20,850 nt of DNA from the IMG/VR virus record IMGVR_UViG_3300042446_002065, positions 1 through 20,850 of that record, one strand, 5' to 3'. Both the position numbers and the translations under genes were made by a program. Of this stretch, positions 9,740 through 18,922 are shown piece by piece (position 1 is the stretch's first letter; each line of letters opens with the position of its first letter). Under the pieces are notes generated by a model. The model did not search any database, was not told the DNA's origin, and worked only from the letters and a program-made list of their open reading frames with translations. The stretch comes from a virus.

Positions 9740-10012
9740 ATGGGACTACAAACTACACTTGCAATTGCAGGACTAGAACTAACACTTGAAGAACAGGTTG
9801 GCATTCACTTGCGATCTAATCTTTATCCACCAGTACCACTTTCAATGGTTCAACCTTGCGTAGATGCTATTCATGCCTATGACAATGAGGACTATCATAC
9901 TGAAATACAATTGCCAGAGGGCGTTGAATGGCGTGGAAGTAACTTTGCACCTGCTTCAGCAATTGTTGAGGGACATCGCCTTGACGGATTCTTAATGGAA
10001 GATGAGTGGTAA
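9740..10012 (+). CDS. Conserved actinophage protein, EEQVGIHLR family (90 aa)
   Basis: The protein carries LTLEEQVGIHLRSNLYPPVP (about 15-34), SMVQPCVDAIHAYDNED and LPEGVEWRGSNFAPASAIVE with HRLDGFL near the end. This set (EEQV..HLR.N..PPVP..MV..C..AI and LPEGV.WRG...AP...IVE.H.LD.FL) is a common actinophage family of unknown function. At 90 residues it looks complete. It is the first gene of operon P4, followed after 2 bases by the next ATG. Confidence 0.75.
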   Translation: MGLQTTLAIAGLELTLEEQVGIHLRSNLYPPVPLSMVQPCVDAIHAYDNEDYHTEIQLPEGVEWRGSNFAPASAIVEGHRLDGFLMEDEW

Positions 10013-10014
10013 AG

Positions 10015-10152
10015 ATGAAATTTATAGCAACACCTGAACAACTTAGGGCAAGACTTGAGTTGCGTAGAAGTAACGCCTCTGCTAAGCACGTTAATAAAAA
10101 GAAATACAATCGTAAGAAAAAACACGTTGGCAAATCTACCTTTTGGGATTAG
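10015..10152 (+). CDS. Small basic protein (45 aa)
   Basis: ATG at 10015 lies 2 bases after the upstream stop. The product MKFIATPEQLRARLELRRSN continues as KHVNKKKYNRKKKHVGKSTF, very rich in Lys and Arg. Nucleic-acid binding is plausible from charge alone. No family is recognised. Confidence 0.6.
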   Translation: MKFIATPEQLRARLELRRSNASAKHVNKKKYNRKKKHVGKSTFWD

Positions 10153-10153
10153 T

Positions 10154-10285
10154 ATGAAATTTATCTTTGCACTATTTGTAATCGCACTTCTTGTATTGCC
10201 AGTCATTGGTTTTGTTGATGGGCTTGGTTATAAAAAAATGGATAACGAGTATTTGGATTCTGCAAGGTGGGTTGACGGAAAATAG
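10154..10285 (+). CDS. Small membrane or secreted protein (43 aa)
   Basis: ATG at 10154 lies one base after the upstream TAG. Residues 1-22 (MKFIFALFVIALLVLPVIGF) form a signal-anchor; the rest (VDGLGYKKMDNEYLDSARWV) is polar. An upstream in-frame ATG at 10055 would overlap the previous gene and is rejected. The function is unknown. Element copy 3 follows at once. Confidence 0.6.
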   Translation: MKFIFALFVIALLVLPVIGFVDGLGYKKMDNEYLDSARWVDGK

Positions 10286-13865: not shown

Positions 13866-14855
13866 ATGGCAGATGCAGTAGAAATTATAAACGGTGTTGG
13901 CTCTATGTACTCATTCAGAGAACCTGCTTGGCATGGTCTTGGAACTGTTGTTACAGAAGAACACACTACAAGTGAAGTTATGGACATAGCACACTTATCA
14001 AACTGGAATGTACGTCTTGAAGATGTGCAACTACCTGAGGGCTACACATCAAGCAAGTCTAACTATCTTGTTGTTCGTGACCACCCAGAAGATGGACATT
14101 CAGATGTTCTAGCAGTTGTTGGTGAGCGTTACCAAACTTTACAGAATGAAGAACTATTTGCTTTTGCAGATAATCTTCTTGACGGTGCTCGTTGGGAAAC
14201 TGCTGGCTCACTAAAGAATGGTCGTGTTGTATTTGGTTCTCTTGCTCTTGAGCGTGAGACCGTACTTGACCCTGATGGCGTGGCAGATGTTGTTAAGTCG
14301 TACTTGCTTGTAAATACATCACATGATGGTTCACTTGCTGTTCGTGCATCAGTAACTCCTGTTCGTGTTGTATGTGCAAATACTCTTGACCTTGCTCTAA
14401 AGGGTGTCAAGCAGTCTTTCAAGATGCGACACACATCAACACTTGAGGGTCGTATCTTAGTTGCTCGTGAAGCATTAGGTCTTGCAAATACTTACATGGA
14501 CGAATTTGACAAGATGGCTCAAGCACTTATTCAAAAGGAAATCACAAAAGATACTTTTAATAAGATTGTTGAAAAGGCTTACCCAATGCCAAACAAAGAT
14601 ACTAAGGGTGCTATGACCAAGTGGGAAACCAAAGTTGATTTGTTAGATGAGATTTTTGCATCAGACACAAACTCAATGATTAACAATACTGCTTGGGGTG
14701 CTTTCAACACATTGACTGAAAGACTTGACTGGTATCGCTCTGCCCGTAATGGCAACAACGAGGGAATCCTTGCAAGTGCATCAGGCTTTGACCCAGTTAT
14801 CACAGCAGAAAAGAACAAACTACTTTCCATTGTGAAAGAGGTTGCTTTCGCCTAG
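13866..14855 (+). CDS. DUF932 / phage-plasmid-like protein (TIGR03299 type)
   Basis: The 329-residue protein opens with MYSFREPAWHGLGTVVTEEH (about 14-33); WHGLG is the family landmark. It continues with SNYLVVRDHPEDG, VVGERYQTLQNEELFAFADN and VVKSYLLVNTSHDGSLAVRA with TPVRVVCANTLDLAL, all expected for DUF932 proteins, which are common on phages and plasmids and sometimes linked to replication or recombination. No catalytic function is established. The length is close to the family norm. It has CTAAGGAA before the ATG and is a single-gene unit between P10 and element 7. Its arginine codons are largely CGT, unlike the AGA-rich late genes. Confidence 0.85.
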   Translation: MADAVEIINGVGSMYSFREPAWHGLGTVVTEEHTTSEVMDIAHLSNWNVRLEDVQLPEGYTSSKSNYLVVRDHPEDGHSDVLAVVGERYQTLQNEELFAFADNLLDGARWETAGSLKNGRVVFGSLALERETVLDPDGVADVVKSYLLVNTSHDGSLAVRASVTPVRVVCANTLDLALKGVKQSFKMRHTSTLEGRILVAREALGLANTYMDEFDKMAQALIQKEITKDTFNKIVEKAYPMPNKDTKGAMTKWETKVDLLDEIFASDTNSMINNTAWGAFNTLTERLDWYRSARNGNNEGILASASGFDPVITAEKNKLLSIVKEVAFA

Positions 14856-17880: not shown

Positions 17881-17957
17881 GGGGTGGTAGCTCAGTTGGT
17901 TAGAGCAGCAGACTCATAATCTGCCAGTCGTCAGTTCGAGCCTGACCCACCCCACCA
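17881..17957 (+). tRNA. tRNA with CAU anticodon (Met or Ile2)
   Basis: Acceptor GGGGTGG/CCACCCC, D-arm GCTC...GAGC, anticodon stem GCAGA/TCTGC with loop CTCATAA (anticodon CAT), T-arm GTCAGTTCGAGCCTGAC, discriminator A and encoded CCA. A CAU tRNA may be elongator Met or, with lysidine at C34, Ile2; the sequence alone does not decide. An inverted GGGCGCGG core follows 1 base later. Confidence 0.93.
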
Positions 17958-18032: not shown

Positions 18033-18061
18033 TTGAAAAAATCAAGGAAAGAAGGTATAAT
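18033..18061 (+). promoter_or_regulatory. Consensus promoter of the Ntn-hydrolase gene, leaderless
   Basis: TTGAAA, a 17-base spacer and a perfect TATAAT. The ATG at 18069 begins 8 bases after the hexamer ends, so the transcript should start at about the A of the ATG. Confidence 0.75.
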
Positions 18062-18068
18062 AGATATT

Positions 18069-18596
18069 ATGACTATTGTTATTGGACTCATAGATAATGG
18101 TATTGTATATATGGGATCAGATAGAGCTATGTCAGATGAATATTCTATATCTTCTCCTATTACCCCGAAAATAAAAAAGAATGGACAATTTTTAATTGGA
18201 TATGCTTCTTCAAGGGGATCTGGACAAGTAGCTCATTATATTGATTTTCCTAATGTACTTAAGAAAGATGTAGATAAGTATATGAGAACTGATTTTATTC
18301 TTACCCTGAAAAAAGCTATAGAGCCATATGGTATTGATATATCAGATGATGACAAGGCAGCTGCAGAATTTTTAGTGGGGGTACATGGAAGATTATTTAA
18401 TATATCTACTAATGACTGGCAAGTAAATGAATATGATAAATATACAGCTATTGGATCTGGTAATAGCTATGCAATAGGATCTCTTGATACTTCTTATACC
18501 TGGAAAGATCCTATAAAGAAAATAAAGACAGCTTTAGAATCAGCTATTAAAAATTCTCCTCAATGTGATTATCCAATAGATATTTTACATTCATGA
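18069..18596 (+). CDS. Proteasome/HslV-type Ntn hydrolase
   Basis: The 175-residue protein starts MTIVIGLIDNGIVYMGSDRA, as HslV and proteasome beta subunits do after their processing site. Removing the initiator Met leaves Thr as residue 1. In that numbering Asp17 (GSDRA), Lys33 (TPKIKK), Ser129 (AIGSGNSYAIGSL) and Asp166 (QCDYPIDIL) fall at the positions of the proteasomal active site; Ser169 is replaced by Ile. The KKNGQFLIGYASS and AIGSG.SYA motifs are also typical. It would be a threonine peptidase, probably oligomeric. No HslU/ClpX-type ATPase is visible in the window. An upstream TTG frame (18033) lies inside the promoter, so the short start is preferred. It overlaps the next gene (ATGA). 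Being only weakly similar to HslV, its assembly and partner are unknown. Confidence 0.8.
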   Translation: MTIVIGLIDNGIVYMGSDRAMSDEYSISSPITPKIKKNGQFLIGYASSRGSGQVAHYIDFPNVLKKDVDKYMRTDFILTLKKAIEPYGIDISDDDKAAAEFLVGVHGRLFNISTNDWQVNEYDKYTAIGSGNSYAIGSLDTSYTWKDPIKKIKTALESAIKNSPQCDYPIDILHS

Positions 18597-18922
18597 CTGA
18601 CTTTGTAGTTCCCCCTGTAGGTGGGCGTAAGCTTAAGGTACGCAATATTTGTTATGATCAAGAGCATGACTGGACAGGGCAGTATTACGATGGATGGCTA
18701 TTCTTAGATTGCACAATATGCGAGGCAAGAAATATCCAATATAGAGTAAGACCAAAACAAGCAAAGGCTTTATATCATGGATGGGATATTAACAAACTAT
18801 ATATATATCTAGATGAATGTGGAAATCATATAGATGCCCAAGGATTTTTAGAAATAGGATATTTAGAATATAAAAGATTTCAAGAACATCGTAAAGATTT
18901 TAAAATTGTTTCTGCCAAATAA
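18593..18922 (+). CDS. Partner gene of the Ntn hydrolase, unknown (109 aa)
   Basis: It is coupled by ATGA to the Ntn-hydrolase gene and must share its transcript. The product has HDWTGQYYDGWLFLDCTICE with a CxxC pair at 40/43, then RVRPKQAKALYHGWDINKLY and IDAQGFLEIGYLEYKRFQEH. The N-terminal Cys20 and Cys76 could add to a metal site, but this is uncertain. I do not recognise the family. The tight coupling suggests a related job, such as an adaptor, inhibitor or substrate of the peptidase. Confidence 0.62.
   Translation: MTDFVVPPVGGRKLKVRNICYDQEHDWTGQYYDGWLFLDCTICEARNIQYRVRPKQAKALYHGWDINKLYIYLDECGNHIDAQGFLEIGYLEYKRFQEHRKDFKIVSAK

Follow-up and report, generated by a model that had tools for sequence, protein, structure and literature searches.

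A proteasome-like threonine peptidase of a probable actinophage, best named a divergent viral branch of AAH

What kind of proteasome homologue does this virus carry, and how might it act in an infected cell? The window, meaning the whole stretch of DNA analysed, is a 20.85-kb viral record, and at 18069..18596 (+) it holds an open reading frame for a protein of 175 aa, mature from Thr2 (Thr1 in the mature numbering used below). An earlier note had taken this frame for a real gene, coupled to the next one and encoding a phage proteasome-like threonine peptidase. Both claims were borne out: the frame overlaps the following one through an ATGA, and its product, with an intact catalytic triad and a proteasome-type predicted fold, matched PHROG 1040, 'peptidase HslV family' (E 2e-17), and barely exceeded the cut-off of the Pfam Proteasome model (22.5 against 22.4 bits). 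We list it as an AAH-type proteasome-like (Ntn) threonine peptidase on the basis of phrog_1040, AlphaFold2 (AF2) and fold matches, hhalign and 12 viral copies.

The peptidase gene, its predicted fold and active site

The 12 near copies of the peptidase were found in IMG/VR (81-100%), and their dN/dS against the window, ~0.04-0.22 where amino acids differ, indicates purifying selection. All together, the near copies and the low dN/dS argue for a conserved, functional gene and not a chance reading frame. A TTG at 18033, which would add 12 residues, was ruled out as an alternative start, because in-frame stops lie 6-10 codons 5' of the peptidase start in several close copies (L003, L005, L011 and L013). 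The nucleophile Thr directly follows the start codon in all members of alignment A4, and a conserved propeptide or N-terminal extension was found in none of the peptidase relatives.

Structure prediction had been set beforehand as the test of the assignment, a fold lacking the alpha-beta-beta-alpha arrangement being the outcome that would count against it. AlphaFold2, run on a 49-sequence alignment, returned a confident proteasome fold (pLDDT 92.2, pTM 0.89), and since its best solved matches were BPH (Z 20.3) and HslV (Z 20.0), followed by 20S beta (~19-20; matches within 1 Z being treated as tied), the alpha-beta-beta-alpha fold is the one predicted. The closest solved fold, BPH (PDB 5ovs/5ovt/5ovu), superposes at 2.5-2.8 A over 167 residues and shares an acidic loop with the window protein, whereas sequence identity is 18-19%. 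In the window protein the loop, residues 88-99, is less certain in the model and contains DISDDD, invariant in six close copies. HslV (ClpQ) is alike in fold, similar in length and has the GSG motif; the window protein differs in having Ser-Ser for Gly-Gly, and HslU was not detected.

The earlier note had placed five active-site residues at proteasomal positions. Three of them stood with their proteasomal numbers: Thr1, the expected nucleophile once Met is removed (codon 18072..18074, +), and the triad residues Asp17 (18120..18122, +) and Lys33 (18168..18170, +) are each present in 49/49 relatives. The other two, Ser129 and Asp166, did not hold. Position 129 is Cys in 33/49, Ser in 15/49 and Ala in 1/49, the Ala belonging to a close relative 81% identical to the window protein (L013), and position 166 reads D/D/N/I/K across the five closest alignment rows. 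Because position 129 is variable, and position 166 is so even among close copies, we regard the Ser129 and Asp166 matches as coincidences of numbering. The likeness of AIGSG.SYA to HslV was likewise reduced to its two glycines, which are invariant, and the following Ala (48/49). In the 49-member alignment only Met1, Thr1, Asp17, Lys33, Gly128 and Gly130 are invariant.

After strand S4, close to the oxyanion site usually provided by Gly47, most of the family have Ser-Ser at positions 46-47 (S46 in 41/49, S47 in 47/49) in place of the Gly-Gly of HslV and 20S. With Ser129 unconserved and Ser-Ser replacing Gly-Gly by the oxyanion hole, the chemistry could differ, as it does in connectase, a ligase. 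The variation at position 129 would also suit an inactive remnant or a binding protein, a reading to which we give almost no credence, given the three invariant catalytic residues and the low dN/dS. Taken with Ser-Ser at 46-47, it may instead point to a narrow-specificity Ntn enzyme that processes a specific phage or host protein, or joins or acylates peptides, and is not a degradative ring; connectase is a precedent within the same superfamily (PMC8665760). This we consider unlikely: the predicted fold is compact and BPH/HslV-like, and its strands S3-S4 are short, without a connectase-like helical insertion between them.

Placement among proteasome homologues

Profile searches did not bear out membership in HslV. 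The NCBIfam HslV models TIGR03692 and NF003964 gave no match to the peptidase up to E 1, so that HslV proper was rejected, and hhalign showed the protein to be AAH-like instead: the window-clade profile aligned with 22 cellular AAH-type proteins, recognised by taxonomy and likeness, at prob 99.7 and E 3.5e-27, with 35% identity over 170 columns. Two further families were discarded. For 20S beta (PrcB), TIGR03690 scored 13.8 bits against a cut-off of 191.9, and the peptidase has no cleaved propeptide; PPH proteins have ~140 residues and lack helix H2, whereas the window protein has 174 residues and, in the model, S4 and S5 are separated by two helices (49-57 and 65-87). Against one BPH the window-clade profile reached 19% probability, and the AAH-family profile matched a BPH at E 9.7e-9.

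Fuchs, Alva and Lupas described AAH and PPH in 2021 among phage-carried proteasome homologues, for which they reported no co-occurring AAA+, and defined AAH by a compact core of S1-S11 and H1-H4 without the C-terminal S12/H5 (PMC8665760). The AF2 model ends with strand E171-174, giving such a compact core without S12/H5. With AAH the window protein further shares Thr1/Asp17/Lys33, a Thr straight after Met and the lack of an AAA+ partner. It differs in its motifs, TIVIGL and SSRGSGQ where most AAH members have TCIVGL and SSFRMGQ, in forming a separate, long branch apart from the cellular AAH sampled, and in being encoded by a likely actinophage. In a quick tree the window clade, fully supported and long-stemmed, branched off immediately outside the cellular and other phage AAH (support 88), a point to set against AAH membership. 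The AAH profile match, the failure of HslV, 20S beta and PPH to fit and this position in the tree make a phage-borne AAH member, as a divergent viral branch, the safest name that sequence comparison offers.

A GTDB scan with the phage members gave 76 loci, mostly in alpha-proteobacteria (Azospirillum, rhizobia) and also in Frankia, Streptomyces and Bacillota, which is the distribution of AAH. A more distant family alignment (A1) proved too divergent to serve in such a scan. The window protein itself matched 1/296 Frankia-phylum genomes, that one being the Frankia used as centre. Among phages, tblastn with the window protein matched 32 records at 25-43% identity, 26 of them with coverage of at least 80%. 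These homologues are the PHROG 1040 phages (Psychrobacter, Moorella, Geobacillus, Vibrio, Aeromonas), which differ in gene context and for which an actinobacterial host is listed in 0/32 records.

A second actinophage group (L164, L165 and L166: DSL-LC01, Arthrobacter phages Pitbull and Hum25, Microbacterium phage Pumpernickel) encodes proteasome-like proteins annotated as protease or ATP-dependent protease subunit. They resemble the window protein in their Thr after Met, their Asp and Lys and their actinobacterial hosts, but form a separate tree group and gave no tblastn match to it at E 0.01.

Virus, host and gene surroundings

An actinobacterial host had been assumed for this virus, and its relatives agree. 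The gene whiB, an accepted actinophage marker (PMC6802176; PMC10202952), is present in all four long relatives (G001-G004, 56-102 kb); in the control set (n=14) it was found in Corynebacterium only. Three genes have their best matches in Streptomyces phages: the DnaE polymerase (~51%), the head maturation protease (~48%) and the DUF932 protein (13866..14855, +; ~53%). With whiB in the relatives and core genes closest to Streptomyces phages, an actinobacterial host is likely, and the virus is, judging from its genes, probably an actinophage. We take G002 for a nearly whole genome, because its DUF932 and AAH genes stand near opposite ends with the spacing seen in the window. In one close relative (L013, ~9916-10263, -), a HesB/ErpA-like Fe-S carrier gene of actinobacterial type lies near the AAH gene, with at most ~67% identity to Frankia-phylum genomes.

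AAH is thereby placed in a phage lineage that probably infects actinobacteria, while tblastn found the peptidase to be absent from those best-matching Streptomyces phages of laboratory hosts. The 2021 survey found AAH in 'many phage genomes', yet no Actinobacteria-specific phage encoding it, nor any transmission of AAH by phages in Actinobacteria (PMC8665760). Given this survey without AAH in actinophages, the window peptidase would be an AAH in a host group from which it was previously unreported.

A tRNA-Met (CAT; 17881..17957, +; ARAGORN) lies just 5' of the peptidase gene, and between the two stands a promoter-like TTGAAA-17-TATAAT (18033..18061, +) with 11/12 positions of the consensus, a consensus match only. 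Its TATAAT ends 6-7 nt before the peptidase ATG; TATAATAG is kept in 13/13 copies, the -35 part less so. In G002, TATAAT occurs 6-9 nt before the start of 10/108 ORFs of at least 80 aa, where ~0.5 would be expected from the genome average, the upstream background being AT-rich. The ten include tail-fibre-type genes and those for the head maturation protease, a nuclease and the peptidase itself. Such an arrangement suggests that the peptidase may be made from its own leaderless or near-leaderless transcript, and that the TATAAT set may mark a class of late promoter in these phages that is leaderless or phage-specific. The occurrence of this arrangement before structural genes of relatives (head maturation protease, tail fibres) would also be compatible with the narrow-specificity enzyme considered above.

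More broadly, TATAAT was seen 5-10 nt before starts in G002 (L026-L031), G001, G003, G004 and the window, for example at 18069 (+), 4542 (-), 5687 (-) and 20098 (-). The TATAAT-preceded set in this phage group also includes a tubulin-like gene. A 311-aa protein at L030:8429-9364, from a phage of ~100 kb, is weakly matched by the phage tubulin PhuZ (E 1.5e-5).

The coupled downstream gene (18593..18922, +) encodes 109 aa and has no family assigned; its product had no phage match and no PHROG or NCBIfam match. It had been suggested as a helper of the peptidase, an idea that its distribution contradicts: it occurs only in the window and in one relative (L005, 81%), and is missing from the others. 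In L002 and L009 the flanks align straight across its absence, as for a clean presence/absence cassette, and a role as conserved partner was therefore rejected. In the window group no neighbour gene of the peptidase is conserved, which argues further against a narrow-specificity enzyme.

In 14 prophage and viral loci from several phyla, TerL has an AAH or related gene no more than a few kb away (L050, L069, L086, L090, L091, L102, L103, L104, L135, L140, L144, L145, L149 and L150), including one in Streptomyces sp. SID3212 (L104), a case that contrasts with the lack of phage transmission in Actinobacteria in the 2021 survey. Among the gene neighbours of cellular AAH, a phage terminase group was the only one to turn up widely once antisense artefacts of the AAH gene were set aside. 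The presence of AAH relatives near the terminase gene in several prophages may be counted in favour of a narrow-specificity enzyme. Proximity to TerL would also fit a capsid maturation protease or packaging factor; such a role seems to us very improbable, since a separate gene of G002 is given over to head maturation protease (phrog_9427, E 1e-121), its AAH gene and head genes are ~45-55 kb apart, and a Peptidase_S78 is likewise present at the Pelosinus AAH locus. The head maturation role itself was rejected on the strength of the G002 protease.

On plasmid B of Sinorhizobium americanum (L168:7001-7546), an AAH gene is flanked by nifQ on one side and on the other by an iscA-like gene, after which comes nifS. 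A link of AAH to nitrogen fixation was discarded, as it was not general in the 76 genome loci (flanks of at most 4 kb).

A possible working of the peptidase

We favour, as somewhat better than an even chance, an AAH-group phage peptidase that acts as an ATP-independent, self-assembling ring and, needing no dedicated unfoldase, cleaves small or unfolded proteins. A (near-)leaderless transcript of its own would yield the phage protein. Met-Thr is a standard substrate of methionine aminopeptidase, and the host enzyme would take off Met1 and free Thr1, which, to judge from sequence and predicted fold, would form the Ntn active site with Asp17 and Lys33. Like those of BPH and HslV, the subunits may next form a ring or double ring by self-assembly, and this assembly would cleave small or unfolded proteins.

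That no ATPase partner is encoded nearby had been remarked from the window, and the long relatives, one of ~102 kb, confirm it with their lack of AAA_2 and AAA matches. An AAA_2 unfoldase (HslU included) was found in none of five records, one of them ~102 kb, against control rings in 14/14, a host HslU being possible; AAA and Pup were both absent from the long relatives. We propose unfoldase-free action because the phage has no AAA+ partner and because the invariant acidic DISDDD sits in the expected pore loop 88-99, recalling BPH, which is itself thought to work without an unfoldase (PMC8665760).

Alternatively, the peptidase might use Mpa/ARC, ClpX or ClpC of the host as its unfoldase, or replace or join the host 20S core, so that degradation is redirected in infection. 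The earlier note had likewise raised the possibility that a viral subunit replaces, poisons or specialises host protein degradation. The likely actinobacterial host would suit this, as would the need of HslV, the nearest well-studied relative, for an unfoldase. A 20S beta exceeded the cut-off in 66/149 sampled Frankia-phylum genomes, which counts in favour, and none did so in the other 83/149, which counts against. The likeness of the peptidase to 20S beta is very weak by TIGR03690, it has no propeptide and the phage has no unfoldase; we therefore hold the use of host machinery to be improbable.

A wider proposal unites several of these elements: an actinophage proteasome-type ring, made from a leaderless, separately promoted message, with which the phage would alter the infected cell's proteome, either unaided or via host 20S/Mpa. 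We put it forward as a long shot; if true, a viral proteasome would be working in bacteria that may also possess their own. In the literature searched we found no paper on a phage-encoded proteasome or a freshwater-actinophage proteasome, nor any that reports what a phage-encoded proteasome homologue does, the homologues being known from sequence. The window peptidase is encoded by a small, solitary gene for which no partner was detected, so its activity and its effect on infection can be tested directly.

As a separate observation, Aeromonas phage 2L372X (L047) carries two adjoining genes both annotated 'peptidase HslV family', possibly a tandem subunit pair.
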